From the NCBI RefSeq assembly GCF_000002865.3, contig NW_001865040.1:680905-744904 (forward strand): a stretch of DNA of 64,000 bases. The letters run 5' to 3'. A model generated the notes under the pieces. It saw only the letters and a program-made list of their open reading frames with translations. It ran no database searches and was not told the origin of the DNA. The position numbers were made by a program, and so were the translations under genes. Origin of the DNA: Monosiga brevicollis MX1 (lineage: Eukaryota; Opisthokonta; Choanoflagellata; Craspedida; Salpingoecidae). Position 1 is the first letter of the stretch. Every line of letters begins with the position of its first letter. This document shows positions 12,256-64,000 of this stretch, one piece after another.

Positions 12256-12299
12256 TTTTACGTCGACGCTCACAGGGCGCTTACGGTTAGCGTAAAATT
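12254..12299. repeat. Inverted repeat at the stop codon of the EF-hand/coiled-coil gene
   Basis: Nine-base arms AATTTTACG (12254-12262) and CGTAAAATT (12291-12299) are perfect complements, 28 bp apart. The left arm overlaps the TAA stop. It could form a 3' UTR hairpin; function is unknown. Confidence 0.5.
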
Positions 12300-13798: not shown

Positions 13799-15084
13799 GA
13801 GCGAGAGCTTTGAGGGCGCTGCCTGGCGGCACAGCTGTGTTGCCTTCCTCTGTGCTTCGAGTTTGAGTGTAATGAGACAAAAACTCGGCTGAGAAGGAGG
13901 GGTGAGTCATTGCAGAGCACTTCAGTCACAGCCAATGCATCGGGGTACCCTGAAACAAACCCAAGATTGTGATGGTCGTACCCATTGGGTGGTGGGATCG
14001 AACGAGGTGTCGCATGCCAGCTATCAATAATTTACCTCCCTCCTAAATCTTCAGATGTTGCCACGACCGTACATGCTGATGCCTCAAGCTTGCGCTAGGA
14101 GGAGGGAAACACTTTCGCTTTAGGTTTTGCTATTTTACGGATCTGCTCCTTGATTTATCGTCAGCACGTGGCGAGGGTGGTTTTTTTTTTGGCTGTTGTC
14201 GTGTGTCGAATGCCAAGTGCACATGCTAGCTGACGCGAGCTTGTCCTGCTTCAGTAAAAAGCCTCATCCTGTTTGCCTCGGAGCAGTCCTTTCTCCCCTT
14301 CACGCCCGCTTCATCATAACGTCATCGGAGCAGTAGGGCGAGCGAGGTGCTGTGACGGTCAACTTGACCACAGGTACAATCTCACCAACTACCAACAATT
14401 CAAAAGGTTTCCATAGCAAGAGGCAAGATGTTCAGATCACCACAAGCACAAACGATTATCACATCATGGTGACCTTTGAATATGGGATTAAGTGCATACA
14501 TGCACCGATCAATGGGGGAAATTGTTTCCGAGCAGAGGAAGCTGTGTTACGGTTTGTTGTTCTTGCTACGAATAACACGTTCAAGGCATGTGCTGTTGGG
14601 CCAAAAGGCGCGGTTGGGTTGGTGATGAAGTCATTTGGCGGATAAATTGCATCGCGGCGCTCTCACGTGGATTTGGTGTTGAGATTACTTGGCGAGATCG
14701 GGGCACGATGGTGCACTTCATCACCTCTTGACGTACAGCCCCCAGCACGCGCCTTCCTCAGAAAACAATCAAACAATAAACCCAAAAACCGATTTATTAT
14801 CAACAAGTCATAAGTCGTTGGTGTGAGGCCTGCAGTGGTGATCCGGCATCGTGGACTTGTGTACGAGCATGAAAAAGGGTCCCTTTGTTGCAGCGCGACC
14901 GCCACACATTGGCCCAAGAACCAAACGCAATATTGTGGGGTGACATGAACTGGTTGGGTTGCGCTTCGTGTCACTTGTTTCCTTCAAAACTTACAATTGG
15001 GGGGTGGGGGACACTTGGTAAAATTACTTTGCGGCACCAAGACAAACGGAAAAATTCACGAGAGCTCGGCCCTGTGTTGCACAA
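13799..15084. other. Stretch without a supported gene
   Basis: Only short frames occur, including 97 codons on the plus strand at 14352-14645 and 103 on the minus at 14663-14974, with no recognisable content. The right part is probably 3' flank of katanin p80. A poly-T run lies near 14181-14190. I found no tRNA-like fold. Confidence 0.35.
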
Positions 15085-15124
15085 CTCTCTCTCTCTCTCT
15101 CACACACACACATACCCACACACG
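15085..15124. repeat. (CT)n(CA)n compound microsatellite in the 3' flank of KATNB1
   Basis: A CT run followed by CA repeats, ending directly beside the stop codon of katanin p80, so it is likely in the 3' UTR. Confidence 0.85.
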
Positions 15125-15126
15125 TT

Positions 15127-19542: not shown

Positions 19543-23308
<3,766 letters not shown>

Positions 23309-32300: not shown

Positions 32301-35300
32301 CTCTGAACCCAAGCTTGTTCTTTTTGAGCACGGCACCGCCACACATTTGGCTGTGACTACTTTCGGGCCTTGTGTGGCAGGCACAACGTGTGCCTTTGAT
32401 GTTGTTGCACTTGATCAATACGAGAATGTGGATATCACAGCCTCAGGGACCGTGCAGGTCCGGATTGTTGGGCTATCTTTGAGCTCGACCAACCTACTCG
32501 TCACTTATAGCAACGGCCGCGGGTCATTTGTTCTGTCATCTCCTGTTGCTCAAAGCGCGGCGTTTTACTTGTCAAGTCCCTCAGACGCGCTGCTTGCCAC
32601 CACCAATAATAGTTTCCCTGTCGTTGCCGGTAGGATATGTCTCTACCGATCCGCTTCTTTGGTTTCCTGAGTGTTTGCAGACTGCCACTGCCAACGCAAA
32701 AACTCACGCAGTTACCCTTTATATATAAACTTCCATAGACTCCGTTTCGCGTCTTGTGCTTGCAGTGCAGACAACCCAAGTGGCCGGCGAAACTTTCCTC
32801 TCAAACATCACAGCCGTGGATCAATATGACAACATCAACTATGATTTCAACGCTACATTGCTGCTTGCCGTCAACGACAGTGCTAGCACTCTGTCGCTTG
32901 CTCAAGGCGTTGCATCGTCCTCGCTCGTTTTGACTACAACCGGGTTGTACCAAGTAATCGTTGCGGTGCAAAACGCGAGCGGTGTTGCTGCTGCAACCGA
33001 AATAATACAGTTGTTGCCAAGTACGTGCTGTTGAATCGTTAAGACCGCTGTATTAACACCAAAGTGTTATGAGCACTGCGGATTTGCTCACCCACTGAAT
33101 TTCGCTTTTGCTTCACTGTATTTTCAGATGTGGCTGTGAAGCTGGCGCTTGCTCTGAACGATTCCGCAACGGTTGATGCACCTTCGTTTGTCGTTATTAC
33201 AGCCCGCGACGCATACGACAATTTTGTTCCCGACTTTGCCGACGCCTTGACTCTGCGGGTGGATGGTGACGCATGGCTGGCCAGCGCTCAGATTGCAATG
33301 CATGATGGCGTGGGCGTTGCTGTTGTACTGGCCACAACTCCAGCCGATGTCACAGCTGTCGTGACAGATTCTGTATTGAATCTAACCGCGTCCACAAAGC
33401 TTAGCTTTTCATTTGCACCAGGTAAGACAAAAATGCCCAGACCAGAAGTCAGGGCACGCAGTCCGCAACGAGGTTTTTTACGATTATCGAGGCGTCAATC
33501 GTATGTAAGCCCAACCCTTCGACTGCTCTGATGCGTAGGTGCAACGGTGGGGTACAAATTCAGTCTGGAGGCAAGCAATCCTGTCGCAGGTGTTTTTGTT
33601 AATGGCACTGTCATTGCTTACGATCAATACAACAACACAGCTACGGCCGAGCAGCGTGATATCCGCCTTCTGGCCGATGGAAGTCGCACAGGAGACAGCG
33701 TCATTTTAGACCTGGCTGCGTCAACCTTCTTCGGGGCAGCCACCCTGGATATCCAAAACGGAACAGGTCAATTTGCCGTCACGTCATTTAGCGCCGAGAC
33801 AGTCACTGTGTCGCTTGTGGATTCCTATGGCATCGGAGGCCTCAAGCTGGATTCAATCATCTTGCACTTTGTGCCTGGCACCCTGATCCAGTGTAACTTG
33901 AGAGCTCAACATTTTGTTCCTGATACCATTGCCCCTCAACTTCTTTCCTTTTCGTTTGACGGCAACGCCAGCCAGCTTCGGCTCACGTTCTCTGAAACGG
34001 TCAACAAATCTTCTTTGATCATTGACCACCTAACTTGCCAAAGTTTGGATGACATTGACGAGAACTTTGTCGACTATACCCTAACTACCCCCTTTGCTTT
34101 GCTGAATCCCACCATCGACGGCCCTGTCGTTCAAATCAGATTGAATGACTTTGACGCCAACAACATCAAGGCTCAAACTTCGCTATACACAGCGCGCAGT
34201 ACTACCTATCTCAGCGCCCAGGCTGATATGATTCGCGATATGAATCAAAATCCCTCAGTGCGCATCGAGCCAACTTCAGCCTTACGTGCCACAACCTATC
34301 AACGTGACGTCGTCGGGCCACGCCTTTTGGATGCTGCTCTCAATGCTTCATCGTCTGTTTTGACCCTAAGCTTTAATGAAGTGGTAGCCCTTGACTCGTT
34401 TGATGTTTCCAAACTGAGCATTATTAGTAACTCATCGAGCGTTGCATTATCTTCGGCTACTGTGTTGAATTCTGCAACCTCGACCTCAATCCAGCTCCAA
34501 GCCTCCAGCGCCGATCGCAACGCCCTTCTTGCGTCCAATATGTTGGGGCAGTATATTGGCCAGACCCTCAGTGCCGTGGCCAGTGTGGGCCTCGTGTCCG
34601 ACCTGACGCAGCCGACAGGAAATGACAACTTGTTGTCCCAAGCCTCGTTTGATCTTAGCTTCCCAGACGTTGTCCCGCCTACCGCATTGGGGTTTACTCG
34701 CCTCGATCTCTCCCAGGGCTCACTGCGCCTGAGTTTTGACGAGCCTGTTCAGCTCCCATCCGCAGAGGCTGTCATTAACTTGACTAGCAGTGTGACAAGC
34801 AATTATTCAATTCCTGTCGTCATTGCAAGCTCGTCGTATGTTGACTCTACCAAGCAGATTGTTGAAATTGTGACCAATCAGGCTACCTTGGACCAGCTTC
34901 GCGTCAGTGTCACGATTGCGACAGCCGAAGCTACTTCAGTTATCTATGTGGATCAAGCTGCCTTCCGCGACATTTTTAACAACACGTTGACAGACGAAGT
35001 ATTTCTCAACTTGGCAACAGGCGGCTATGTTGCCGATACGCAGGCCCCATCACTGGTCTCAAGCACGTTGGACATGAATGCTTCAACCATTACAATGCGA
35101 TTTGATGATGTTGTGGATGTGACAACCATTTTGCCACGTTACGCCAGTCTGCAAAGTGCTGCTACAGATGACAGTTTGACGATTGCTCTAACCAATTCCA
35201 TCGTTCTGACTGCAACACCCTCGTCTAGGATCATCTTGCAGCTCAGCAGTGCCGTGGTTGACAGTCTAAATGCCAATCCCGGGCTGGCAAGCAGTCTTGC

Positions 35301-38300
35301 AAATTCCTTTATTGCACTGGAGTCGTCCTTTTGCAATGATTTGTCTGGTCTAGCGGTTCTACCTGTGGCCTCCACAAACGCGCAGCAGGTGACGGACTAT
35401 ATTGCAGATGAAGTGGCGCCAGTCATTCTTTCAGCAGATCTAAACATGAACACTGATCGCTTTGTGCCTGTTTTTTCTGAGGTCATCAATGCCAGCATTG
35501 TTTGTGCCAGCGATATCACATTCAATTTTACCGGACACGTGGAGAATCTACAGACCACTTCGTGTACAACAAGCGAGCATGCCCGGAGTCTCATACTCAG
35601 TTTTTCAGCTTCGGAGTTTGGACGACTCAAAGTTGCATATGAGACGTGCAATGGCTGTACAGTTCAGGCCACCTTTCACGATGCTCCTCAGGATATGGCT
35701 GGGAACGTGGTGGCAACTGATACTCTCCAAGCGACAGTTGTTTCCGACGTGACGCCACCAACGTTGTTGGGTTACAACTTGAACATGGCAACCCGCGAGT
35801 TAACTTGCTCATTTTCCGAGCCAGTGTCGCTAAGCAGTGTTGAGCCGACACTTCTTGCCATCCAAAACCATCCAGGCACGGATATTCAGTTGCCGCTTTA
35901 TCGCATTCAACTGACCGGTGCTGCAAGTGTTGACAAGCCAGCACCAGCTGTCGTGCGTATTGTGCTGAACGACGCCGACTACAACGCTTTGTCCCTCAAC
36001 ACAGCAGTGGCCGTTTCTGGCACAAGCACATATATGACTGTCGCCGTTGGATTTATTGATGACCTCTTTGGCAACAGCATTCAGGCGATCTCAGCTCTTC
36101 AAGGGACGCACACAGCAGACACAACTGCACCCGTGGTCGTCTCCTCGACTCTGGACCTTTCGACGCGTGAAATCATATTGGTCATGCGTGAACCTGTAGC
36201 TGTGAGTAGCGTTGCGCCCACAGCAGTTACGATCAACGCCTCTGGCATTGAGTATAGTCTACAATACTCGAGTGTGGTCACGGCTGTAAACGGGATTTCA
36301 ATTACCATCAGTATTTCAAAGCAAGACTTTGATTCGTATGTGCTTCTTGCTTCTGGTACTGTGACTGCGCCAACGCTGCTGCTTGATTCTGGGTTTTGTA
36401 CTGATATGGCAAATAATGCCTTGATTGGTTACAATGAAGAGCCGAACACATACATCCCCGATATGATTCCACCGACTATGATTGCTGGGCACCTTGATTT
36501 GAGCTTGAACCAGATCAACCTGACGTTCTATGAACCAGTCAACATGGCCAGCCTAAACCTGAGTGGAGTGGCTATTGCGGATGTCGACAATGGCTCCCGC
36601 TATGCTTTGGCTTCAAGTCTGGTCACAAGCTCAGATGGCTTCTTTCTCGTCATTGCCATCTCTGAAGAAGACTTGCTGCCAATTAAGCGCTCTGTGAGTA
36701 GTGCACGAGATGCCGCATCAAGTCTCATTAGCCTGAGTGAGAATGCCGTGAGAGACATGACAGGTGTTGGTGTTCTCCTCACCACACAAACAGCATCTTC
36801 ATACGTTGTGGACACCGTCTCCCCCATTTTGAGATCGAGCACCCTTGATCTGAGCGCAGGTTCGCTAAAGCTGACGTTTGATGAGCCTGTAAATGGCAGC
36901 ACGTTGGATTTGAGCACCATTACTGTCGCTGTCAGCAACGATACAGTGGGGAGTGCCTCGCCTGACGCCTATGCCCTCAGCGGTACGGGGGCTGTGAGCA
37001 ACGTTATCAACGAGGTTATCACTGCTAGCCTGCTTGCTATGGATCTCAACGTGCTGAAGGCCTTGGTGCCCCTAGCTGATGACAAATCGACAACATGGTT
37101 GCGATTTGCCACTGCAACGGTTGCTGATGTTGAAGGCAACGATATGGAAGCCGTGACTAGCAATGTGCAGGTGACCACATTCGTGGCTGACTCTGTTCGT
37201 CCAGTGGTCACCCGTGTGGTGCTTGACCTGGTGGATGAGTACTGTGACCTCAACGTGACGTTTGATGAGACGGTGAACGCGGATGCCGTCGACCCTACTC
37301 GCATCAGCTTCCAGCGCTCGGCCACAGCCGACGTTGCAAGTGACATCTTCCTGGTGGGCGGTCAGGCCCTAAGCGCCAACAGCACTGACATTCGTCTGCG
37401 GCTGGTCAAGGCAGACTGTGACCGTCTGAAGTTGGACACGACTCGTGGCACCAACGAGAGCACAACGTTTGTGTCATTTGGCAACGGGGCAGTTGTGGAT
37501 ATGGCTCTTTCCCCCAATGCGCTGAGCGCGGTGGTTGAGCAAGCCGCAGTCGTGGCCCCGGATGTCACAGCTCCATACTTGACTGCCTTTATGTTGGACA
37601 TGAATGCAGGCGTGGTGGTGTTGAACTTCAATGAGCCTGTTAAGAGCGAGAGCATCAACGCGAGCCAGCTCGTGTTCCAGACCGGCGCCACATCGGGTGC
37701 CAGCGATCGCTACCGCCTCACGGGGGGAGTGGTTGAGTCTAGCAATGGGCTGCAGCAGACGTTGAATTTGACGCTGACGGACTTGAATGCTCTCAAGGTG
37801 CACGAGGGCCTGGCGGTCAGCAACTCGACCACATTTTTGAGCCTGGGCTCTGGCTTTGTGCTGGACATGGCCGACAATGCGGTGACGCCCATCAGCAACG
37901 GCCAGGCACGGCAGGTTGACGCTTACGTGCTGGACACCACACAACCTGTGCTCAGCCAGTTTGACCTTGACATGAATATTGGCCGGTTGGTGCTCAGCTT
38001 TAGCGAGACTATGAACACATCTGGCTTTCATGTAGAGCGCCTTCGCCTACAAGCAACGTCTGATGCCACTGGCAACGACGTTTTTGCTTTGACAAATGAA
38101 TCCACGCTTGTTGCAGGGCAGATGGATAGTCCAGTGATCTCCATTGTGCTGGGTCTGGCTGACTTGAATGAGCTGAAGCGTTTGGAGATTGGCAACAGTG
38201 CCGCACGCTCGTGGCTGACGCACGAGGCCAATTTTATGACCGATCAACGCCGACAGGAGCTGATCGGGCGAGTGACCGGCGTTAATGCTCTTGGTGTGGG

Positions 38301-41300
38301 CACCTATGTCGCGGATACCACTGAGGCCGTGTTGGAAGACGCACGGTGGAACGTCAACACAGGCGAGCTGACTTTGTACTTTAGCGAAACGGTGCGGGCG
38401 GTGAGCATGGATACCACGCTTATGCTTCTTCAGAACAGCAGTGCAGAGGGAGTGGGTGCCAGCGTGACACTTTCGAGCAGCAGTGTGGTTTCTTCGGGAA
38501 ATGGTGCCATCCAAACTATTCTGCTGAGTATGTCAGACCTGAATGCCATCAAAGCGCTGCCCACACTGGGCGTCGACATTGGCACGACGTTTGTGACCCT
38601 GCGAGCCTCAAGTGGAGTTGACATGGTGGGCAACGTCATCAACGGCACCACCGGACTGCAGGCTAGTGTGGTTGTGGTTGACACGACGGCACCACAGCTG
38701 ACTCGTGTGTGTCTTAACCTAGACACCTTGACGCTCACCCTCAGTTTTGATGAGACCGTGAATGCTAGTTCGCTTGATCTGGGACGTATTGTGCTTGCGA
38801 ACGGTGCAAATGATAGCGCCGTTGACTTTGCCTCAGTGCAGCTGGAATCAAGCGAACAGACGGATGGCGTGTACGACGCCGAGTTGGTGGCGCATTTGAC
38901 GGCACGTTCAGCAAACCAGGTTAAGCTACAGCCAAATCTGGGCACGAGCAGTGGCACCACTTTTGCTTACTTGCTCTCGGCGGCCGTGGTCGATATGAAT
39001 GGTAATGTAGCAAGTGCGCAGACAGTTGTGGACGGCATTGCCGATGCGGGCTGCTACACACCTGACACGACTGCACCGTTGTTGGAGAGCTTCAATGTGT
39101 CCCTCGCGGACGACGGCATCATTGTTTTGTCGTTCAGCGAAAGTGTGGATACGGGCAGCTTGGATGGTCTCAAGCTGCACATGCACGGCGCCGGTACGTT
39201 TGTTGCCAATCAAGCGGCTAGCACCACTGTTTCTTTGGCGGGACTCAGTGTGGTGTCTCAGGAGTTGGAGTTTGTGCGTGTTGTCTTGTCGCGTACATCG
39301 ATGGATGCCATCAAGGCGCTGCCTGAGGTGGCATCAAGCCTCGGAACATCGTTCATCAGCGTTGATGCCTCGGGCGTGACCGACATGGCTGGCAACTCGA
39401 TTCTTGCCACATCGACACCGGTCTCGGCAACGGCGTATGTGGCAGACGCCACTGCTCCTGAGCTCGATGGTTTTACTCTTGACATTAATGCCGGCCTGTT
39501 GGTGCTGTCGTTTAGCGAGACAGTGAATGTAAGCAGCCTAGATGTCCAGGGCATCCAGATGCAGAGCCAAGGCAGTGTGGTGACTGGCGAGGTCGTGACG
39601 CTTGTGGATTCACGAGCAGCCGTCGGGGCGCCCTACCGTCCTGTGGTCACCTTGGAGTTGTCTGATGCGGATCTCAACAATATTAAGGGTGCTTGGATGC
39701 TTGGGACGGAAATTTCCAATACTTTCTTGGCGGTGACTTCGGCGGTGATTGTTGACATGGTCAACGAGCCGCTTGTAGCCATTGCATCAACAGGAGCTTT
39801 GCAGGCAACGCAAGTGACTGGTGATCAAACGGCACCGGCATTGGTTGGCTTTGAGCTTGATCTGACCAGTGAAGTTCTTACGCTGAGCTTTGACGAGACT
39901 GTCAATGCCTCGAGTTTTGATGTTACCGGACTGGCGCTGCAGGCAATGGGCGATGCAACAGGTGCTGGTGTTTTGGACCAGTATCAACTGACGGGACATG
40001 CCGGCATCACCTCATCGCAGCTGGTGATTAATGTGACCTTAACGGTGACCGATCTGAACGAGGTCAAGCGCCGCACAGGGCTTTGCACCTCGGTGGCGGA
40101 CTGCTTTATCCGCGCCTCATCGGCAACCGTGGCTGATATGGCCGCAAACCAGCTGACGTTGATTGCGACTGATGGTGGCCTTGCCGCACTGGCATTTGTT
40201 CCTGATGCAACTTCCCCTCAACTTGTCAACTTTTCCCTGAACATGGACACCAACACCTTGACCTTGACATTTGACGAAATCATTTCGTATGCATCTTGCA
40301 ACATCACCTTTATCACCTTGGCAGGCGACGCAGCTGGAAACAACCCTGTGCCTCTTGGCGACGCTCAAACAGCTGTTACATCGAATGTTTTGTCAACAGA
40401 AATCACCATTGCTTTGGGCAAGGCCGATCAAGAGGCCATCAAGCTTCAGGCTTCTACGGCTACGTCCTCGTCTGATACCTTCATTTCCATCGGTTCTGGT
40501 CTGGCTACGGACGTGAATGGTAACGCAGTCGTTGCCATTGTGCACCCAATGACTTCACTTCTTGCTGTCAGTCAATTTACTGCCGATGCTACAGCCCCCG
40601 AGCTGATGCAGTTTGACGTGAACTTGACCGCTGCACGCGTGGTCCTGAGCTTCTCAGAATCAATCAATGCATCCAGTCTGGTTGCTTCGTGGATAACATT
40701 TTCCCTGAATGGGAGTGCAGCCAGCGTCAATTATTCTTTGACCGGCTATGCGCATGTTTCCGAATCATCGCCTGTGCTCACTCTTGATTTGAGTCGGGTG
40801 GATGCCAATGAGCTCAAATCACAGGGTATCCTTCTTGATGCATCCACCAGTGTGCTTTCACTGAGTGCAGGGGCTGTTGCGGATATGCAGGGCAATCCGA
40901 GCGTGGCAACGCTCCACCAGGCTGTTGGTGCTTATACCCCAGATGTGAAAGCGCCAGAGCTGCTATTCTCAATGCTTAACATGAGTGCTGGGTACCTCGA
41001 CCTGTCTTTTGAGGAAGCAGTAGTGGCTTCCTCTGTCAATGTCAGCAGGTTGCAATTCCTGGCTGGGCCTGGTGGATCCGTACCAAGCCATCGGCTTTGG
41101 GTCTCGGGTGCGAGTGTTCAGAGCTTGCATTCAACGCACATTCGTGTTGTGCTGGGAGATCTCAATCTCAATCAAATCAAGGCCATGTGGGAACTAGCGA
41201 CCAGCACGAGCACCAGTTACTTGTCGCTGGCTGAGGGCTTTGTGACTGATATGTCTGGTGTTGCAAACCAAGGGTTTGAAAGCCGCAGCATCAGCGTCTT

Positions 41301-44300
41301 TGTTGCTGATTCTGTTCGTCCGGTGGTCACCCGTGTGGTGCTTGACCTGGTGGATGAGTACTGTGACCTCAACGTGACGTTTGATGAGACGGTGAACACG
41401 GATGCCGTTGACCCTACTCGCATCAGCTTCCAGCGCTCGGCCACAGCCGACGTTGCAAGTGACATCTTCCTGGTGGGCGGTCAGGCCCTAAGCGCCAACA
41501 GCACTGACATTCGTCTGCGGCTGGTCAAGGCAGACTGTGACCGTCTGAAGTTGGACACGACTCGTGGCACCAACGAGAGCACAACGTTTGTGTCATTTGG
41601 CAACGGGGCAGTTGTGGATATGGCTCTTTCCCCCAATGCGCTGAGCGCGGTGGTTGAGCAAGCCGCAGTCGTGGCCCCGGATGTCACAGCTCCATACTTG
41701 ACTGCCTTTATGTTGGACATGAATGCAGGCGTGGTGGTGTTGAACTTCAATGAGCCTGTTAAGAGCGAGAGCATCAACGCGAGCCAGCTCGTGTTCCAGA
41801 CCGGCGCCACATCGGGTGCCAGCGATCGCTACCGCCTCACGGGGGGAGTGGTTGAGTCTAGCAATGGGCTGCAGCAGACGTTGAATTTGACGCTGACGGA
41901 CTTGAATGCTCTCAAGGTGCACGAGGGCCTGGCGGTCAGCAACTCGACCACATTTTTGAGCCTGGGCTCTGGCTTTGTGCTGGACATGGCCGACAATGCG
42001 GTGACGCCCATCAGCAACGGCCAGGCACGGCAGGTTGACGCTTACGTGCTGGACACCACACAACCTGTGCTCAGCCAGTTTGACCTTGACATGAATATTG
42101 GCCGGTTGGTGCTCAGCTTTAGCGAGACTATGAACACATCTGGCTTTCATGTAGAGCGCCTTCGCCTACAAGCAACGTCTGATGCCACTGGCAACGACGT
42201 TTTTGCTTTGACAAATGAATCCACGCTTGTTGCAGGGCAGATGGATAGTCCAGTGATCTCCATTGTGCTGGGTCTGGCTGACTTGAATGAGCTGAAGCGT
42301 TTGGAGATTGGCAACAGTGCCGCACGCTCGTGGCTGACGCACGAGGCCAATTTTATGACCGATCAACGCCGACAGGAGCTGATCGGGCGAGTGACCGGCG
42401 TTAATGCTCTTGGTGTGGGCACCTATGTCGCGGATACCACTGAGGCCGTGTTGGAAGACGCACGGTGGAACGTCAACACAGGCGAGCTGACTTTGTACTT
42501 TAGCGAAACGGTGCGGGCGGTGAGCATGGATACCACGCTTATGCTTCTTCAGAACAGCAGTGCAGAGGGAGTGGGTGCCAGCGTGACACTTTCGAGCAGC
42601 AGTGTGGTTTCTTCGGGAAATGGTGCCATCCAAACTATTCTGCTGAGTATGTCAGACCTGAATGCCATCAAAGCGCTGCCCACACTGGGCGTCGACATTG
42701 GCACGACGTTTGTGACCCTGCGAGCCTCAAGTGGAGTTGACATGGTGGGCAACGTCATCAACGGCACCACCGGACTGCAGGCTAGTGTGGTTGTGGTTGA
42801 CACGACGGCACCACAGCTGACTCGTGTGTGTCTTAACCTAGACACCTTGACGCTCACCCTCAGTTTTGATGAGACCGTGAATGCTAGTTCGCTTGATCTG
42901 GGACGTATTGTGCTTGCGAACGGTGCAAATGATAGCGCCGTTGACTTTGCCTCAGTGCAGCTGGAATCAAGCGAACAGACGGATGGCGTGTACGACGCCG
43001 AGTTGGTGGCGCATTTGACGGCACGTTCAGCAAACCAGGTTAAGCTACAGCCAAATCTGGGCACGAGCAGTGGCACCACTTTTGCTTACTTGCTCTCGGC
43101 GGCCGTGGTCGATATGAATGGTAATGTAGCAAGTGCGCAGACAGTTGTGGACGGCATTGCCGATGCGGGCTGCTACACACCTGACACGACTGCACCGTTG
43201 TTGGAGAGCTTCAATGTGTCCCTCGCGGACGACGGCATCATTGTTTTGTCGTTCAGCGAAAGTGTGGATACGGGCAGCTTGGATGGTCTCAAGCTGCACA
43301 TGCACGGCGCCGGTACGTTTGTTGCCAATCAAGCGGCTAGCACCACTGTTTCTTTGGCGGGACTCAGTGTGGTGTCTCAGGAGTTGGAGTTTGTGCGTGT
43401 TGTCTTGTCGCGTACATCGATGGATGCCATCAAGGCGCTGCCTGAGGTGGCATCAAGCCTCGGAACATCGTTCATCAGCGTTGATGCCTCGGGCGTGACC
43501 GACATGGCTGGCAACTCGATTCTTGCCACATCGACACCGGTCTCGGCAACGGCGTATGTGGCAGACGCCACTGCTCCTGAGCTCGATGGTTTTACTCTTG
43601 ACATTAATGCCGGCCTGTTGGTGCTGTCGTTTAGCGAGACAGTGAATGTAAGCAGCCTAGATGTCCAGGGCATCCAGATGCAGAGCCAAGGCAGTGTGGT
43701 GACTGGCGAGGTCGTGACGCTTGTGGATTCACGAGCAGCCGTCGGGGCGCCCTACCGTCCTGTGGTCACCTTGGAGTTGTCTGATGCGGATCTCAACAAT
43801 ATTAAGGGTGCTTGGATGCTTGGGACGGAAATTTCCAATACTTTCTTGGCGGTGACTTCGGCGGTGATTGTTGACATGGTCAACGAGCCGCTTGTAGCCA
43901 TTGCATCAACAGGAGCTTTGCAGGCAACGCAAGTGACTGGTGATCAAACGGCACCGGCATTGGTTGGCTTTGAGCTTGATCTGACCAGTGAAGTTCTTAC
44001 GCTGAGCTTTGACGAGACTGTCAATGCCTCGAGTTTTGATGTTACCGGACTGGCGCTGCAGGCAATGGGCGATGCAACAGGTGCTGGTGTTTTGGACCAG
44101 TATCAACTGACGGGACATGCCGGCATCACCTCATCGCAGCTGGTGATTAATGTGACCTTAACGGTGACCGATCTGAACGAGGTCAAGCGCCGCACAGGGC
44201 TTTGCACCTCGGTGGCGGACTGCTTTATCCGCGCCTCATCGGCAACCGTGGCTGATATGGCCGCAAACCAGCTGACGTTGATTGCGACTGATGGTGGCCT

Positions 44301-53300: not shown

Positions 53301-56300
53301 AACGGGATACTTTGTGCTTACGTTTAGCGAGCCCGTTCAGCTTTCCAGCGTCAATCTTTCTGCCCTGACTGTTGAAAACGGCACTCTCGCCATGGCGGTT
53401 GAGGGAACTCTATCTTCCTCGACTGGTGTGTCACATTTGGTCGAGTTTACGTTGCTGACTGCCCAGCTCAATGCATTCCGCGCCTTTGAAGAGTTCTTCA
53501 ACGCTGCCTCCACAACAATACTCAGCGCGTCCGGAGCTTTAGCAATGGATACTTCAAACAACTCAGCTACAGTGACGCAGAGCTTGGTGCCTGGACGTTT
53601 TGAGCTGGACACGGTGCAACCCCATGTCCTTAGTGCTCAATTTGATTTTGACTCTCAAATCCTGCTTCTACGTGTCTCCGAGTACGTGGCCCGGGACGCC
53701 GTTACCGTGGCACATGTGGCTGCAGCCAGTCTTGATGGGACCCTATCAGTGCCGTTGACAGATGCGATTGTCGCAAACAACGCCAGTGCACCTCAGCTGG
53801 TGATGCTGCTCGGCAATCAGAGTGTCACCGCTATGAAATTTGCCGGACTTCAGACCTTTGTCCTATCATGGAACAGCGGCTTTTTCAATGATGTCTTTGG
53901 TCAACCGGTGGAGCCGCGTGCCTTTCCAAACGCGCTGATAGTCGACCCAATTGGAAGCGACACGCAGGTCCCGAATATCGTCACAGTTGAGCTGGACCTG
54001 AGCCGTGTTGTGCTGACTCTTGTATTCAGCGAGCCAGTCTCCATCACAGAAGCCCAATTGGCCTTGTTGCAGCTCCAGCGCTCGGATGGCAGTGCAAACA
54101 TCACAACAGGCGTCTTGTCCGAAAGCGCTGTTGGCTCAGACTACGATCGCCGCTGGACGCTGCCTTTGGTGCCTGCTGCTCATGACCAGGTTGTGAATGC
54201 CATTTTTGCAGGCCATGCGCACTTCGCAGCTGCGCTACCGGCCACCTTGGCGGTTGATCGGTTTGCAAACCAATTTGAATCCACCCTGGCCTCACTGGCA
54301 CTTGTGAATGACACTTTGTCGCCGCATCTGACCACAGTGCATCTCAACCTGAGTAGTAACGTACTCACACTTGAATTCAGCGAGCTCGTCGATGAGCGCT
54401 CTGTTAGCCTGGCTTCGGCTCGCTTATTCATTGCCCCATCACAGCCTGCTGTCCTCTCAGCAGCAACGATGCATCCTCCTGAGGACACACTCGTTCGCAC
54501 GTTGTCATTCAGTGTACCAGATGACGTTCTCAACGTACTGAAGCGACAGGGTGCAATTGATAATGCAACCAATGTGTGGTTCGAGCCGGGCCCTGCACTT
54601 GTTACAGATTTGTTCGGCAACAACTGCAATTCTTCTGTCCGGGCCGTGACGATCACAGCTGATGACGCCGCGCCTCTCGTCTTGGCGGCAGAGCTCAATC
54701 TCAATGATCCCTTGCGCCTGACAGTTCAATTCAACGAGCCTATCCTTCCAGGAACAGTTCAACCCGAGCTGCTGGCGCTGTACGACTCGTGGCTAGTATC
54801 AGTTGAGTTGGCAGACACGACGCCCCTGACATTGTCCAACGAGACCGTTGTTTTCACTTTAAGCGCTGTGCAGAGTAACATGCTTCAACGGCATGCTGTT
54901 TGCTACAACGCGAGTGATTGCATCTTGGAATTACTCGCGGCAGCTGTCCAGGACATGGCTGGCAACGCCCTTGCAGACGAAGACTTTTCGGGCAGTCAAC
55001 TCACTATTGTCAACGATACTACCGCACCCTCTCTCGATGCATGCGCTCTTGATCTATCCAGTGGCAACCTTACTTTGACATTTTCAGAGCCCGTGGCCAT
55101 CGCAACAATAATGTCCAACGGCGCTCACATTCAGAATGTGGCCAACCTGACAGAGCCTGTCCTTTTGGACTACCTCCTAAGCATGTCTTCTTCTGCGGGC
55201 GAGGTGATTGTAGGATTTTCGCTGCGGAATTCAACGCAGGCGCAACACATGGCTAGTGTGACAGCCGCCGTTTGGAACGGCGTGTCCGGCGAGTTTGTCT
55301 TGAGCGGTTCAGGTACCATGTTACTCGTGCAACCGGATGGCACTCTAAACGCACCTAGCGACAGCAATGGATTGCTGGTCTTCCAGTCAGCAGCAGGTGT
55401 ATATCCCCGCCGAACGCTGACACTCACGGTGGGCGAAGACTACATCTACGGCACTGTACAGACGCAAGCATCCGCAGGCAGCACCGTCTCCACCCAGCCG
55501 GGTCTTGTCGTCTCTTCAGAGTATCGCGTGGCTGTGATGGACGATTATCAGAATGAGCGCGTGGCCGTTGCGCTGACGCAATATCAGACGCTTGGCCAGC
55601 AGACAAATACAGAGGCTGTGCTCAAGTTGGGCCGTGACAACCTGAATGCACTCAAGTATGAACTTGGCGTAGCACGCTCCCCCGCAACGAGCTACCTCGT
55701 TGTGCCAGTGGGCTTTGTGCGCGACAACATGGCCAATGTTCTTTCTGAAGTGGCGCCTGCCAATGCAATGCTTTGCACGTTTACAGGCGACACTTCTGCT
55801 CCGTTGCTGGTCGAATTTGATGTTGACATGAACGACGGCTCGCTGCGCCTGCAATTTGACGAAGTCATTAATAGCTCCACCCTTAGCGTGGAGCATATCG
55901 CGTTTGGTACGCCGGCCGTGGGTTTTACCGGCATCGACACCACTTTGGCTACCCTAACCGAGGCCGTCAGCCTGGTCTTGGCTCACAATGTGCTTTCGAC
56001 ACTGAAAATTCAGGCCGGCACATTCCTATCAGCTGGCAGTAGTCTGCTCCAAGCCCAATCTGGAATGATTGTCGATGTCGAAGGAAATGCTTTTGTATCG
56101 CAGGTCCTGAACGCCACCTCTTTTGTAGCCGACGTCACAGCCCCCGCCCTTGTGGCTCTGCGACTAGACCTGACTGATCGCATTCTTCAAGCTAATTTCA
56201 GTGAACCCATCTTGTCGACAAATGTGGAGCACTGTCACTTTCAGCTACCAAATGGCGCGAGGATTAGCTCGCTGGCTGGGACTGTCGCTGCATTGGCATC

Positions 56301-59300
56301 GACGTTATACGAGCAGCTTGATATAGCCCTACCAGATTCGGTTATTGATAATTTGACGCTGAGTCACACTGTACTTCAAAGCCCGCTCACAATAGAGCTG
56401 GTCTGCAGCATGGGAGCCTGGACGGATGCTACAGGCAATCCGTCGCTGACGGAAACACATGCCGTCTCAGATTTTATCGCGGACAGCGTGGCCCCACTGG
56501 CCACCGATGTGGTGCTGGACTTGAACGCGTTGACGGTAACATTGACCTTTGCGGAGAACGTGAACGTCACCACGCTCAACATGACCCGTCTTGTTGCCAT
56601 CAACGAGGCCAACTTAGGCTCTGCCGTGGCACTAGACGGAACTGTCATGGCCCCCAATGATGGCCGTACGGTAGCAATTGCACTGAGCCGTATGACCAGC
56701 AACCAACTCAAGGCCGACACGCAGCTTTGCACGACTCTGGAAGATTGTCAGCTGCAGCTGCTTGCCGGCGCGATTCAGGACATGTCAGGCAATGGGAACC
56801 TTCAGAACACACTCAACGCAACTGCCCTCGTGCCTGACGTGTCACCCCCTGTCCTCATCAACAGCACCCTCGACATGCTACACCGCCGTCTTATCCTAGA
56901 GTTTGATGAGGTGTTAAACGCGTCTTCCGTCCTTGTGACCCAGCTCGGCTGGGATAATTTGGCCCCTTTTGCGGCTGTTCGCGTCGGTGATGCTCGGCCG
57001 TCAACCACCCTTGTTTTGAATCTAACTCATTCCTTGTTCAACGCCATGGCAATCACACGGGCGTATGTAAGCTCGGCAACCAGCGTTTTCACGCTCCCGC
57101 TGGCCTGGGCGCTTGATATGAACCAGAATGCTGTTAATGAGCTGGCCAACTTCACCGTCGCCCACTTTGTGGCAGACACTCAAGCCCCAGATGTGCTCTA
57201 TACGGTCCTCAACTTGACAGCAGAGCAGGTGACCATTGTTGTCAGCGAGGCAGTGGATGCGTTGACCTTGAATGCCTCGAGTCTCACTTTGGTGGGTGCG
57301 GCTGGAAGCACGCTGCGCTTGCTGGCTGAGCCACGTACTTTCAAAGCCAACGGAGATGCCACGGTTTGGGTGCTTGACCTCTTGAAGTCCGAAGTTGACC
57401 TTTTGCAGGCTGATCCTGCTTTGGCCGAGAACGCCAGTACGGCTGTGCTCCAAGTCGAAACAACTTTTGTGCGTGACTACGCCGGGAACCCAATTTTGCA
57501 CCACGAAGCGGAGGTGGATGTGTTTGTCGCCGATACCATTACGCCTCGTTTGAACGAGGTGGTGTACAATGCCACCGATGGTTTGATGACACTGAGCTTT
57601 AGCGAGGTCGTTTCTCCGACATCGCTTATCTTTGCTCAACTGACTTTCGGGGGTTTGTCGGTTGAGGCCGACCTTGTGACGACTATGCCTGCCACGCAAG
57701 TGTCAGTGAAGTTGACCGCCGACACCACTGACGGTCTCAAGTACGCAAGACGTTGCCTCTCCGGCATCTGTGAGCTAGTTGCCTCGTCTGGATGGGTCAG
57801 AGACATGGCTGGTAACCTTGCTAGTGGTTTGACCTTGGTGAACGCAACAGTGCTCAATGATACCGCTTTGCCTGAAGTACGGGCAGCAGTCGTGGATATG
57901 GCCCAGGGCCGCCTGACTCTCAATTTCTCAGAGCCTGTGCAGGTGCCCACAGCCAATCTGATTGGTTTTGCTGCTGGCGCCTTGTATCTTGAGGACGTGA
58001 CGCCCGTCACTTGCCATGACCTCAACCGCAGCTGCACCTGGACTTTGACGGACGTCACACTCTTTGCCGCGCAAGCGAATGTCACTCTGATGATCGACGT
58101 GGGCTCCTCGAGTATTTGGCTACTTGATGGGGCTTTCTGTGATCAGTCTGATCTCTGCAGCGTGGCGAGCAATTTCTCTGACGTGGTGTATCTGGCTGAT
58201 ACAGTTGCCCCTGCTATTGTGGGTCTCGAATTGAGCCTCAACTACACGAGTGTCGCTCGCTTAACGCTCGTGCTGTCGGAGGTCGTCAATATCAGTACCC
58301 TGGACGATGCATACATCTCTTTTCTGAACCACTCAGGTGCCTCAACGCCTGTGACTGCTGCAAGCGGTATCACCCTGATTGCGGGTTCTGAAAATGCTGC
58401 TCGACTAGAGCTTGAACTCGATGCAGATTTGACAGCCGCCATTAAGCTACTGTCGCCATTTGGCTTGCAGCTTAACTCGACCATTGTGCGCTTTGAGCCA
58501 GCAGTATTGCAAGACATGGCCGGAAACAGTCTCGCTGCTATGGTTGAGCTTGTACCGGAGCTTCTTGTTGTTGATGACGTGGTACCTACCCCCGTTGGCT
58601 TTTCCGTGGATATGAGCACTGGCGTGCTCAGCTTGACCTTTGTAGAGCCCGTGTCTCCTGGCATCGCCGTATACTCAGGCATTCGGCTCGGAGGTGCAGC
58701 TGGACAGTCACTGCCTTTGAGCCATGCCACTGCCAGCTTGGTGACCAACGCTACCCAGCGACTGCAGGTCTTGCAGCTTAGCGAAGCCCTCGTACAGACG
58801 CTCCAAGCCGATGCCACCATGTATAGTGATGCCAACTCCACCTTCCTCAGTCTTGATGCGGCTACCTTCGTGGATGTGGCTGGCAACGCAGTGCTTGCAC
58901 AGGCTATCGAATTGCTGGCTTACGCGCGCGACTCGATTCTTCCTCAAGTAGTGCAGGTGAACATGACAACTTTGCTCGACGGGAGCCAAGTCCTTCGCAT
59001 CGCACTGAGCGAGCCTGTGAATAGCACTCAGATGAACTTGAATGGAGTGGTTCTCAACGCCACAGAGGGCTGTGTGGTGGCCAATTGCACGTTTAACTTT
59101 GGCACGGACGCCTTGAGTGTGGCGGCACCGGCGGGCGCGTCCATGACTTTTGATCTGGTGTTGACGGATGCGGAAACTGATCGCTTGGAGCAAGCTCAGC
59201 TATTGCGCTTCCAGCCGCTCACGTTGCTTGTTGAACTCCCGCCCTCCTTCTTGGTTGATATGAGCGGCAATCCATCCATGGCGCAAGCCTTGGTGCTGGC

Positions 59301-62300
59301 GCAATTATCCAGCGAGGCACAGCCACCGTACTTGTCTGCATCAGCCTTTGATTTGCAGCGCGGGTCACTGCACCTGAACTTTGACGAACCAGTTGACTTT
59401 TCCACCTTGAACCTCTCCCGGGTCCTTCTCACAGACGGGCGTAACGACTCTGCAGCCCTGCCACTGACAGGTGCAGCGTATGCGCCGCGCGTTTCCTCGG
59501 GCATTATGCTGCAGCTGACGCAAGTTCAACTCAATGCCGTCAAAAGCCAGTGGCCATTGTGCTCCGAGCAGGGTGTGTGCCATGTTCAGCTTCTGGCCCA
59601 GGCAGTCTGGGATGTGGCGCTGCTGCCCAACTCCAACGTTCTGGGTATCTATGAGGTGTCCACTTTTGTGGACGATGAAGACCGTCCTCGTATCGCAGCT
59701 TTTGATGTGGACATGACGACACGCCGGGTGCATTTGTACTTCAATGAGTCAATCTACTTGCCATCTGTAAATCTGAGTGCCCTGCGTCTCGCCGCAGATT
59801 CGGCATCTGGAGCACCCAGTCTTGCGCTAGAGCAAAGCGATATTCTCACGACGACGAATGCTTCTGAGGTGATCCTGGCACTGCGTGCTCCGCTGTTTGA
59901 TGACATGGTCTTCAACGGTATTGCTGTGTCGTCAAGCACCACCTACTTGGCAGCCGAAGACGCTGCTTTCTTTGACACGAGCGAGAATCCAAGCGTGGCG
60001 GCTGCGTTGGGCATCAATTCCATTGCCGTTTCGACCTACACGGCTGATGCTGCATCGCCCAGCCTAATCTATAGCCGGCTTGACATGACCGACGAAACCC
60101 TTACGCTCGTCTTCTCCGAGACAATGTCTACGGCAAACCTCAATTTTTCCGCCGTCTATCTGGTCTCCAATGCCTCTGGAGGGGCGGGAATACCGCTGCC
60201 AGACTGCCTCAGCGCCTGCCAAAACCTGCCAGAATGCCTGATGGCATGTCCAAACAACTACAGCGGAGCCGCAGTACGACTTCGGGCCGAGACCACTGCG
60301 ACACAGACCAACGCCACTACGCTGGTGGCCTCGCTTCGTGTGCCCGACGTTCTCGACATTCAAGACTTTGCCAACCTTGCCACATCTGATAGTTGGACCT
60401 GGTTGCACTTGGCCGGTATTCCTTCCTTGGGCAGCGACGTGGCAGGCAACGCGGTTATTGATGGTAGCTGGCCTCTGTCGCTCGTCGTTCCGGATACGAC
60501 CCGACCCGAGCTGGTCGCTGCTGCTGTGAACATGACCAACGAGACGATAACGCTGACGTTTTCCGAAGTCATGACTGCAGAAGTAATGCCCAGTGAATTT
60601 GTGTCCTTCGTGCCCGGGGACACCGCAATGAGCAGCAGCTTTGTCGCTGTTCATCGTGGCCCGGCTCAGGCCCAGCTGACAATTGAACTAGCCCCGGCTT
60701 ATGTGCACCAGATCAAGCTGCAGGGTCCCTTGCCTGGGCGCCTCACACTGAACATGAGCAGTCAGAGTGCCCGGGATGCAACTGGAAACCCCCTGCTGCC
60801 CGCTTTGGATCATGTGTTTGATGAAGTTCATGCGGATACCATTCCCCCCACCCTGACTAAGTTTACGCTTGACTTGACCGCTAACCTACTTCACCTGACG
60901 TTTGATGAACCTGTGGACCTGTTGTCGCTGGATCCAGCTCACCTTGCACTGATCAGCAGCGCGGCTGGTCCTGTCTCTCTCGGCGGCAGCACGAGCGTTT
61001 CCGTGAGCGATGGCCTCGAAATAACATTGGCTTTGCCACAAACTGTCATTAACAACGTGACCCAAGATGACAGCCTGTGCACGTCAGCCGCAAATTGTGC
61101 TCTGGTATTCGGTGGCTTTGTCACCGATACCACTGGTGTCAGCATCGTGCCGGCCTTTGTTAACAATAGCGTCTTGGTTGGTGACACCGTGTCACCGGTC
61201 CTGCAGAGCGTTGCTTTGAACTTGGATGTACGCACCCTGGAGCTCACCTTTAACGAGGTTGTGCGCTGCTCAGCGTTTGTCATGAGTAATCTCACCCTTT
61301 GCTCGAGCATGAGTTGTGGTTCGGCTGTGCAACTGTCTTCCTCGCGTGCGCAGGCTGCGCCTTCCGTGCAATGCGCTGTCGATATTGGAAGGGCGGATTT
61401 CAATAACATCGCCACCACTCTTTCGCTTGGTCGCAATTTGAGCGGAACTTGGTTTGCAAGTACGCGCAGTGCCTTGCTTGACATGGCAGCCAATCCGCTC
61501 GACGTGAGCAATATCCCACTGCAAGCCAGCGGCTTGGTGGTGGATCAAACGGCTCCGAAGCTGGAAAACTTTTCGATCGACATGGAAGCCGGAGTCCTTA
61601 CGCTTTCGTTCGATGAGGCCGTGGACGTAGCCACGTTGGATGTGTCGCATGTATGGCTATCCAATGCAGCATCAAGCATTCCTCTCTCCGGGGGCAGCGT
61701 GGTGCAGTTGGACAGTGAACGCATTCGCGTCCTTCTCTCCAACAGCGACCTCAATGACCTCAAAGCCCGCACGATTTGTCGTTTCCCATCCTCATGCTTC
61801 ATGCACCTCAATGCGACTGCAATTGTGGATATGTTTGGCAATGACAATGCTGCTACCCCAGTGCCTTTGCCTGTGCAAGCCCACCAAGTGGACTCAACTC
61901 GCCCGATGCTGACGAGCTTTGGATTGGATCTGGATGCTTTGGAGTTGCTCCTCACCTTCTCCGAGTCGGTTAATGCAAGCTCTCTACGCATTGACCAGCT
62001 GACAATCGGCGACTTTTTTGAGCCGACCTATTCCTACACGCTGACCTCAAGCGCAGCCACAACGACAGCGGGCCCCATCTTAGTCGTCAGGCTTAATGAT
62101 GACGACGCCGCTGCTCTCAAGGTCAACGACCTGCTCGCCACGTCGCGCGTCAACACTTGGCTCAGTTTCCCAGATACAACGGTGCTGGATATGGCTGCCA
62201 ACCCCCACACGATCGTTGGCGTGCCTTTGATTGCCACGCTCTCAACTGCCAAGGCCGCACATAGCTTTGTGGCCGACCGTACGGCGCCCCTGCTTTTGGA

Positions 62301-64000
62301 CTTTACGCTGGATCTGAATGCACGCAAGCTTGAACTTAACTTTGATGAGCCCGTGCGAGCCAGTACGTTCCAAGCTACACGCTTCAGCCTGAGCAATGCC
62401 CACGGAAACCAGACGCTGACACTGAGCTCAAGCAGCACCATTTCGGCCCTCGACGCCCGTAATGTTACAATATCTCTTTCCAGCACTGACTTTGGCGCCC
62501 TGTCCGTGAGGCGGGATCTTGGTCGTAGCCTCGCTTCTTCGGCCCTTCTTATGGCCGACGGAGCGATCCAGGACATGAATGCCAACCCCATAGCCGAGCT
62601 GTCCCCAGCCCAAGTCGCCGTGGCCTTCTTGCCCGACATTAGCGCCCCTGTGCTTGTCAACGTTGCTTTGAACCTCAACGAAGGCACGCTCACGCTTTTC
62701 TACGAGGAGCCGCTGGACATGGCCACTGTGCGTCCATCGCTGCTCAATCTGACGTTGGCCAACTTCCAAACCATTGCTCTTGACAACTTCAGTGCCGTGG
62801 AAGACAAGGTCAGCGGGCGCTCAGCAAATGGGGAACTTGTCTTTGCACCCGATCCGGTGGCCTGGGTCGACACGACCGGCGTGGTTATTGCCCTTCGCAA
62901 GGCAACTATCGATGTGTTGCGCAACAACGCTCCAGTGTTGGAGGCATCGGGCTTTGTTCTGGGTGTTGGCGCAGGTTTTGCGTTCGACATGCACGGCAAT
63001 GTAGCACCCGCCCGCACTTTTAGCAGTCCAGATGTTGGGGTTGAGGTCATCGCAGATGTGTCCGCCCCAGTCTTGCTCAGTGCCGCTCTAAACTTTAGCA
63101 CGTTGGAGCTGACGCTGAGCTTTTCAGAGACGGTCAATGCCAGTTCGCTGGACGTCTCTAGCGTGCGGCTCTCCAACACACTACCGATTGCTTCAAGCGC
63201 CTACGAGGGACTGCTGTTGAGCGGTTTTGCCAATTTGCGTCATGACCTCGATGCAGTGAGCATCACACTGACCGCAGAGGATGGCTATGCTCTTGCACGT
63301 TTACGATCGCTCCGCAGCGGCACGGATCTTGTGCACGAGACCGCATTGATTGAAGACATGTCGCAAAATCAAGTGGTGCGCCATCCTGAATATGCACGAC
63401 TTACGCCCGTCAGCTTGGTCGCCGACACAGTTGCACCCCGCTTGCTGCAATTTGATCTCGATTTGCAAGCAGGTCGAGCCACGATTGTGTTGCATGAAGT
63501 TGTGCAATATGCTTTGGTCAACCTCTCCGCCATGGTTCTCTCCAACGGAGGTGTGGAAGAAGTTGTGCTCGGCGGCGAAATTGACGTGACGGCTGGCGCC
63601 ATGCCCAATGACCATGGAACCGATGCGCGTGACATGCACGTCGTGGTCGTGATTTTGGACCAAGCCACTCGTGATCAGCTGACCTCGGCCGATACCCTGT
63701 GCCGCAGCTCTGCCTCCTGTGAGCTGCGACTTGCGTCAGCAGCCGTGACTGACATTGCCGGCAATCCCAATGTTGCTGCTGGTGTCGCGGCCACGTCTGT
63801 ACTCTGGGATACGTCCCTACCCGTTCCCTTGGGTGCACGCTTGGACTTGGTGCAGGGTCTGTTGGTTCTGAATTTCAGTGAACCAATCAACGCTTCTGCA
63901 ACTCAGCTGGCCCACGTTGCGATTGGTAATGGCACCACGGCTTGGGTTAATCTCACTCACGCGTCAGTAGCTGCGACCTCCCATCTGGCGCGTACCTTGA
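29378..64000 (+). CDS. Giant secreted or surface Ig-like repeat protein, at least 11,266 residues, open at right edge
   Basis: Exons: 29378-29462, 29618-29920, 30049-30342, 30458-31354, 31448-32629, 32739-33020, 33128-33421, and one from 33539 to beyond 64000. Every intron is phase 1. The first exon is a signal peptide (hydrophobic core ILTFCILSLL). Exons 2-7 encode 101, 98, 299, 394, 94 and 98 residues: modules of about 98 residues, each with a DxFGN, DxYGN or DQYDN turn, the look of bacterial Big_1 or filamin-type Ig folds. Exon 8 opens with one more such module and then has 82 modules of a second type, about 123 residues each. Consensus: D-x-x-x-P-x-L linker, then LDLN or similar, L-x-L-x-F-[SDN]-E-x-V, a D-L-N-x-[IL]-K stretch and V-x-D-M-x-G-N. 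That resembles bacterial Ig-like Big_5/SwmB repeats. Many NxS/T sites suggest glycosylation. An adhesin or matrix role is inference. No transmembrane part is seen because the gene runs off the window. Confidence 0.9.
30343..30457 (+). other. GC-AG intron in the giant gene
   Basis: The exon ends GCTGCAG and the intron begins GCAAGT, the usual GC donor consensus. It ends TGTAG. Length 115 bp, phase 1. Joining here keeps the reading frame and the module pattern, and no GT at this position would do so. Confidence 0.8.
36807..37920 (+). repeat. Source of 3-module block recurring at 47535
   Basis: 1,114 bp that recur at 47535-48648 (offset 10,728 bp, 3,576 codons) with one difference seen (GAGATCG against GAGGTCG near the left end). 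It overlaps the start of copy A, whose base variants it shares against copy B. Confidence 0.93.
37189..40224 (+). repeat. Near-identical 8-module block, copy A
   Basis: Matches copy B at 41308-44343 with an offset of 4,119 bp (1,373 codons). I see four base differences, all in the first about 100 bp, and none in the remaining 2.9 kb by visual comparison. Both ends lie in the intermodule linker. Confidence 0.93.
41308..44343 (+). repeat. Near-identical 8-module block, copy B
   Basis: Second copy of the block at 37189-40224. It lies 1,083 bp after copy A; the three modules between them (40204-41307) are unique. After 44343 the sequence diverges at once (CAACTT then TCGGAA instead of GTCAAC). 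Confidence 0.93.
47535..48648 (+). repeat. Near-identical 3-module block, copy C
   Basis: Third occurrence of the modules at 37189-37920. The match stops at both ends within the V-x-D linker (left at VDTVSP, right just after QARQVD). It agrees with copy A rather than B at the four variant sites. Confidence 0.93.
55015..55788 (+). other. Oversized module with inserted segment inside the repeat array
   Basis: The linker-to-linker distance is 774 bp (258 codons), about twice normal. The start (SLDACALDLSSGNLTLTF) and the end (DNLNALKYELGVA ... GFVRDNMAN) are standard. Between them, about 55200-55570, lies material without the usual linker or F-[SDN]-E motif, including EFVLSGSGTMLLVQPDG and a tract ending YRVAVMDDYQNE. 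It may be a different beta-rich domain or a decayed module. Confidence 0.7.

Follow-up and report, generated by a model that had tools for sequence, protein, structure and literature searches.

We examined a 64,000-bp window (the whole stretch of DNA analysed, C55:680905-744904, on a 2.6-Mb contig) of the 39.47-Mb genome (57 contigs) of the choanoflagellate Monosiga brevicollis, together with 60 kb fetched rightward, and identified a gene of eight exons on its forward strand. The last of these, exon 8 (33539-65478, +), is a coding exon of 31,940 bp with no internal stop. What was observed directly is the open frame of this gene with its splice model, the order of its domains, the conservation among its repeats and its relatives; judged from the sequence, it is probably a real and intact gene for a secreted, rod-like extracellular protein of 11,749 amino acids (aa) made of immunoglobulin (Ig)-like repeats. 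Its features are as follows, with positions past 64000 given in extended coordinates:

29378-29462, +: exon 1, with the start codon and a putative signal peptide, MPRHGLPLPCARWNILTFCILSLLTTTD (by eye), ending in the phase-1 donor GTGAGC (three-frame view and splice model)
29618-29920, +: exon 2 (splice model)
30049-30342, +: exon 3 (splice model), with a GC-AG donor
30458-31354, +: exon 4 (splice model)
31448-32629, +: exon 5 (splice model)
32766-33020, +: exon 6 (splice model)
33128-33421, +: exon 7 (splice model)
29618-33421, +: N-terminal filamin/Ig-like units in exons 2-7, all introns phase 1
33539-64000, +: in-window part of exon 8, which runs on to the TAA at 65476-65478
33913-64000, +: tandem repeat array (iterated profile search), ending at about 64122; residues 1229-11298
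63999-64000, +: window edge, with three TIG stretches, a Calx-beta and the conserved tail just past it
64123-65475, +: C-terminal tail, residues 11299-11749, with TIG in three stretches and one Calx-beta (about 65023-65253)

No stop interrupts frame 1 between 33532 and the window edge, nor beyond it up to 65475, and its TAA lies 1,478 bp beyond the edge; the acceptor AG of exon 8 ends at 33538. The original prediction, made on the window alone, of one gene with a stop-free exon longer than 30 kb and a product exceeding 1 MDa was thus borne out, the eight-exon splice model giving a full product of 1,235 kDa and pI 4.2. The seven upstream exons that it proposed also fit the splice model, in which every one of the seven introns is in phase 1 and measures 93–155 bp. 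Its count of at least 11,266 residues does not quite agree with the 33,772 coding bases (11,257 codons) found within the window, indicating that one or two small exon borders differ. The exon 3 donor, at position 30343, belongs to a GC-AG intron (G/GCAAGT), the other introns of the gene being GT-AG. The remark that few predicted proteins are this large must be tempered, as more than 41,000 UniProt proteins exceed 5,000 aa (PMC11573180), and as this genome contains another exon just as large.

A chance open frame was rejected: at the base composition of exon 8, about 427 stops are expected in its 10,646 codons and none was seen (log10 probability -189). By comparison, stops number 293, 250 and 584 in the three reverse frames and 560 in one of the other forward frames. 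This intact frame also makes it hardly credible that the array is a pseudogene or drifts freely; its recent block duplications, and a repeat order without demonstrated conservation against relatives, would suit drift, but conserved residues in nearly all repeats and a conserved C-terminus speak against it as well. Five antisense open frames of 201–226 aa lie within exon 8 (57025-62699, minus strand), and we take them as by-products of codon use.

In the array, about 83 repeats, each some 120 aa long, follow one another in tandem with a median period of 121 aa (83 profile matches above 8 bits). The linkers are short (median 10 aa; the longest gap between profile matches is 119 aa), which leaves small scope for hidden introns. 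It could still be supposed that the gene is real while the exon combines at least two genes, contains introns free of stops or has alternative ends, leaving the protein much smaller. Three places where successive profile matches lie more than 30 aa apart (42, 57 and 119 aa) leave some room for this, which we nevertheless judge unlikely, as no gap exceeds about one repeat and the longest lies between two half-matched repeats; relatives have unbroken frames of up to 7,987 aa, one of them, P0010, being a 7,574-aa frame under a transcript-style name, and the C-terminal end agrees with that of relatives.

Mean column identity among 55 aligned array repeats is 30%, and three acidic residues of the repeat profile are near-invariant: D4 (100%), E28 (96%) and D102 (99%), counted in 78 of the 83 repeats after excluding five with short matches. 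These conserved acidic residues sit near both repeat ends, and the most conserved columns are these end positions together with hydrophobic or proline positions. The three residues are conserved at 89–100% in the giant gene on contig C51 of the same genome and at 96–100% in the sponge proteins Dysidea P0001 and Corticium P0012; the minimum across these three, P0037 and P0010 is 85% (E28, P0010). A glycosylation sequon is present in 77 of the 78 repeats aligned.

Big_5 (PF13205) was the best Pfam match for two of three long array pieces, at 48.1 bits in 45541-57540 and 38.3 bits in 57541-63999 of the window (gathering cut-off 23.6). On these profile scores, the repeats appear remotely like bacterial Big_5 Ig-like domains.

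Within the array, three repeated blocks were found:

37148-40264, +: 3.1-kb duplicated block, in frame, with a copy at +4119 bp (41267-44383), 98.1% identical
36763-37971, +: 1.2-kb duplicated block, with a copy at +10728 bp, 95.0% identical
41267-42090, +: duplicated block, with a copy at +6609 bp, 92.7% identical

The offsets of 4119, 6609 and 10728 bp are all divisible by 3, and one 2,700-nt block comparison gave 6 differences, 5 of them synonymous and 1 nonsynonymous. Recent in-frame duplication is favoured over an assembly slip, and by such duplication inside one intron-free exon the array would grow or change length. Since the blocks are so similar (3.1 kb at 98.1%), the assembly could hold a wrong repeat number.

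The 3.1- and 1.2-kb blocks are open to misassembly and the repeats remotely resemble bacterial Ig domains; one might therefore suspect an artefact, either bacterial adhesin DNA or repeats misjoined in one frame. We consider this very unlikely. The giant exon is joined to spliced exons on a long contig, between BBS2 on one side and LSM5 (by eye; other strand) and RPS25 on the other, the block offsets keep the frame, another five arrays are spread over three different contigs, and relatives elsewhere share the same C-terminus. Bacterial contamination was rejected on the introns, the neighbour genes and the paralogues. The RPS25 gene, just beyond the right edge of the window, matches MONBRDRAFT_14336 of M. 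brevicollis MX1 at 100% identity (92% of query covered), the sole further hit at E≤1e-30 having 74%. As LSM5 and RPS25 both lie within 2 kb downstream of the end of the giant gene, further 3′ exons have limited room. Elsewhere in the window, 913-977 and 21691-21816 consist entirely of the dinucleotide CA, in 32.5 and 63 copies respectively.

At the N-terminus, a hydrophobic leader resembles a signal peptide (by visual judgement). Exons 2-7 carry ten D-x-[FY]-x-N motifs and an eleventh lies at residue 1132, early in exon 8, the spacing being 90–107 aa. All Pfam scores of this region were sub-cut-off (Glyco_hydro2_C5 26.1 bits, SMP_2 18.9, Ig_GEX2_N 15.3 and Filamin 14.7), and thus 'filamin/Ig-like' is used as a label, not as membership. 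In the C-terminal 451 aa, TIG scored 77.5 bits (cut-off 20.9) over three stretches and Calx-beta 43.4 bits (cut-off 27). The whole protein has 227 N-glycosylation sequons, compared with 118.6 ± 9.2 in 200 shuffles. Cadherin (PF00028) gave no match at E≤1 in five pieces covering the entire protein.

The original prediction had looked rightward for the stop and for any membrane anchor; the stop was located, and a membrane anchor was rejected, as no 19-residue segment of the protein averages ≥1.9 on the Kyte-Doolittle scale, a strict test that also misses the signal peptide and beside which no glycosylphosphatidylinositol (GPI) predictor was run. Inspected by eye, the C-terminus also lacks hydrophobic character. 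The earlier hint of a cell-surface protein therefore stands in part: the putative signal peptide, the sequon excess and the TIG and Calx-beta domains agree with it, and the lack of any transmembrane segment in that test and the non-hydrophobic C-terminus do not, so that 'secreted' fits better than 'anchored'.

We searched the Monosiga genome with 1,365 aa of the array and obtained at least 92 matches, which outside the window gene form five more arrays on three other contigs:

C51, 959726-991671: exon of 31,946 bp, 86 repeats, open frame of 10,718 aa, acceptor read as phase 1, TAA stop
C36, array 1: open frame of 9,040 aa (own-genome protein search)
C36, array 2: open frames of 4,383 and 1,563 aa (same search)
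C41, array 1: open frame of 5,081 aa (same search)
C41, array 2, minus strand: open frame of 4,017 aa (same search)

The near-equal sizes of the C51 and window exons are probably a coincidence. The NCBI model MONBRDRAFT_33612 is a paralogue that covers 4,982 aa, compared with the 9,040-aa C36 open frame, with stretches of 1,915 and 875 aa 100% identical to the repeat paralogue. At C36:97003-102447 cysteine-rich repeats of TNFR type (90.3 bits) come after a repeat array, and the EukProt entry P0066 combines a repeat array with a TNFR match just under cut-off. On C41 (673200-680000), a cadherin gene with 15 cadherin stretches lies about 0.8 kb past the 5,081-aa repeat frame on the same strand; as it has its own leader (by eye), it looks like a separate gene. 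Other large Calx-beta genes, with open frames up to 4,861 aa, are located at C49:443-450 kb, C38:634-648 kb and C30:527-533 kb, and none of them matched the 1,365 aa of array in the own-genome search. A Big_5 search of the genome listed only C46:428577-428900 and C32:640070-640393 (53 bits; frames of 622 and 609 aa) and missed the giants.

Beyond Monosiga, protein relatives numbered at least 51 from 470 scored candidates and at least 114 from 2,903, the scored candidates being those that share most words with the query. All of the 165 relatives listed have at least 10 repeats, 56 are at least 5,000 aa and the longest is 7,987 aa. Among them are proteins of the sponges Dysidea avara, Corticium candelabrum, Ephydatia muelleri and Amphimedon queenslandica, in addition to the Monosiga paralogue, and three EukProt entries (P0010, P0066 and P0125) are named in transcript-assembly style. 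Long unbroken frames on DNA contigs of relatives suggest giant exons there too. Viral contigs gave 17 pattern matches, none confirmed as a relative. When bacterial and archaeal genomes were scanned with a pattern, 2 of the 168 stretches obtained were relatives, at 28% and 31% identity, and just one of the two loci (L031) had matches to the profile, which were weak and irregularly placed.

The C-terminal 451 aa of the window gene matched 22 of 168 compared sequences. In 21 of them the match spans 439–463 columns at 24.8–29.2% identity (E 4e-45 to 2e-29), the other, P0113, being partial only. These 21 alignments halt 2–16 residues short of the relatives' ends (ten are shown in the full alignment), and the sequence after the last repeat measures 452 aa in the window gene and 456–463 aa in the 21 relatives. 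Three proteins (P0051, P0111 and P0167) have more than 400 aa after the array, yet do not match the TIG/Calx-beta tail. The repeat order of Ephydatia P0085 is colinear with all five tail-bearing proteins tested (z 13.0–22.9), which places a sponge within the TIG/Calx-beta-tailed group.

The C51 giant ends with GC at or near the stop, as do Dysidea P0001 and Corticium P0012. Compared with eight relatives, its C-terminal register was the best in 4, 6, 3, 5 and 6 of the eight over the last 5, 10, 20, 30 and 40 repeats, respectively, where the eight are akin to each other rather than independent, and P0002 and P0003 are weak over long stretches. Among 164 relatives, its best diagonal was with P0033, exactly in C-terminal register (z 5.2; controls 4.2 reversed and 4.8 permuted). 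Close to its C-terminus, this second giant retains an order of repeats like that of sponges. The Monosiga C36 model is colinear over 29–35 repeats with several relatives; the top eight of 163 scored z 6.5–4.9 (Corticium P0008, 5.3), and since reversed controls reach 3.6 and permuted ones 5.1, roughly the lowest two of the eight do not rise above control. Between sponges, repeat order is strongly kept in matching pairs: z 18.4 for Dysidea-Corticium, 20.4 for Dysidea-Ephydatia and 23.0 for Dysidea-Amphimedon. The EukProt entries P0010 and P0125 are colinear with Corticium P0008 over 50 and 26 repeats (z 9.7 and 12.0).

Taken together, we propose that megadalton rods of Ig-like repeats, each encoded mostly by a single exon that can reach 32 kb, may form an ancestral choanoflagellate-animal family with at least three groups (TIG/Calx-beta-tailed, 'GC'-tailed like C51, and C36-like) that pre-date the sponge/choanoflagellate split; the C-termini would have been kept in the TIG/Calx-beta-tailed and 'GC'-tailed groups and the repeat order partly kept in the 'GC'-tailed and C36-like ones, and the family would have been overlooked because gene predictors cut the giants up. 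We regard this proposal as evenly balanced between true and false.

Several results weigh against the reading of the window gene as one for a secreted Ig-repeat rod. For the window gene, the best order score was only z 4.7 (P0082 and P0090), against maxima of 3.9 reversed and 5.0 permuted; in C-terminal register the mean z was 0.25 over the last 10 repeats in 21 relatives, that register being the best for 6 of 21 (P0032, P0034, P0038, P0043, P0123 and P0140), third best for P0045 and not favoured for 14. On these alignments, the array order of the window gene appears to be lost or too diverged. The Ig-like assignment has its own difficulties: no Big_5 match was listed at E≤1 in 33541-45540 of the window, CopC passes its cut-off (23.3) in both Big_5 pieces (27.3 and 28.1 bits), only 4 of 55 single repeats matched Big_5 at E≤0.01 (best 0.0011), and a PDB sequence search with the repeats gave nothing convincing (best E 0.59). 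Given the few single-repeat matches and the CopC overlap, the Big_5 label is not firm; NCBIfam matched none of the 55 repeats. Finally, no public protein corresponding to the window gene was found among candidates of about 5,400–17,190 or 1,650–5,250 aa, ranges derived from a rule of 0.55–1.75 times the length.

As for expression, fold, calcium binding and adhesion, we infer the following. The signal peptide would lead the protein into the endoplasmic reticulum, and the chain would then present about 11 filamin/Ig-like units, about 83 Big_5-like repeats stacked end to end and a head of three TIG and one Calx-beta. Acidic residues near both repeat ends may bind calcium at the joints, as their conservation and the analogy with bacterial rods suggest, and would stiffen the glycosylated rod, whose length would be about 0.39 micrometres (83 repeats at the 4.75-nm spacing of the bacterial protein MpAFP). 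The head, which of all parts is the most conserved when the window gene is compared with its relatives, is likely the binding end, and the rod would space or tether it from the cell or matrix.

It is possible, if rather doubtful, that the protein is instead a building block of a matrix or theca, or a glycoprotein for prey capture, with ligand binding by the repeats themselves. The lack of any membrane anchor found, the 227 sequons and the scarcity of lysine in exon 8 (0.9% of residues) would all agree with this, but the most conserved columns are the acidic ends and hydrophobic or proline positions, and the spacer rod remains our preferred reading.

If the proposal is true, a unicellular organism among those most closely related to animals builds megadalton extracellular rods and sponges share the family, which would be a concrete, testable and apparently overlooked component for the origin of animal matrix and adhesion; the giant may be an overlooked piece of surface machinery inherited by animals. 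A 32-kb coding exon occurs twice in one 39-Mb genome, and public annotation seems to miss the window gene, as the only Monosiga model listed in the lengths searched is the paralogue MONBRDRAFT_33612. A giant rod of Ig-like repeats is already known from bacteria, and we found no description in the open-access literature, searched for giant proteins of choanoflagellates or sponges, for long exons and for sponge aggregation factors, of its use in a choanoflagellate with sponge relatives, in 32-kb exons.

Among eukaryotic systems, choanoflagellate cadherins are likewise large extracellular proteins, and one of their genes adjoins a repeat paralogue on C41, but the window protein has no cadherin domain match (Pfam, E≤1). 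The sponge giants have a common repeat profile with the window protein (median period 122–125 aa in nine proteins) and, in two tested, the same acidic residues; they are shorter as annotated (1,870–7,581 aa), their array order appears to differ from that of the window gene, and none of the nine models matched the TIG/Calx-beta tail. A review reports a study without evidence for exon shuffling in Monosiga (PMC8001218); the all-phase-1 N-terminal exons are of the class 1-1 type discussed there, which is suggestive only.

Bacterial giant adhesins offer the closest parallels. MpAFP of Marinomonas primoryensis is a 1.5-MDa protein with about 120 Ig-like repeats of 104 residues in tandem, proposed to form a rod of about 0.6 micrometres that is calcium-stiffened at its joints, four repeats spanning about 190 angstrom (PMC4083281). 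The window protein resembles it in mass, in having on the order of 100 tandem Ig-like repeats, in acidic residues at the joints and in a functional domain toward one end. MpAFP is a bacterial RTX adhesin whose repeats are described as identical, unlike the diverged repeats of the window protein, whereas the window gene has splicing, a putative signal peptide and a TIG/Calx-beta head that the cited account of MpAFP does not mention. SiiE, the Salmonella giant adhesin, has 53 BIg domains and 595 kDa (PMC5466336), and in both proteins calcium sits at the joints of the Ig rod (PMC5466336, PMC4083281). It shares Ig-like repeats and conserved acidic residues with the window protein, and in SiiE two adjacent domains contribute these residues; SiiE is half the size, uses type 1 secretion and has its calcium shown, where that of the window protein is presumed. 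The window gene has introns of the spliceosomal type and encodes, at the N-terminus, a putative signal peptide. By analogy, the proposed rod most likely works as the bacterial giant adhesins do.

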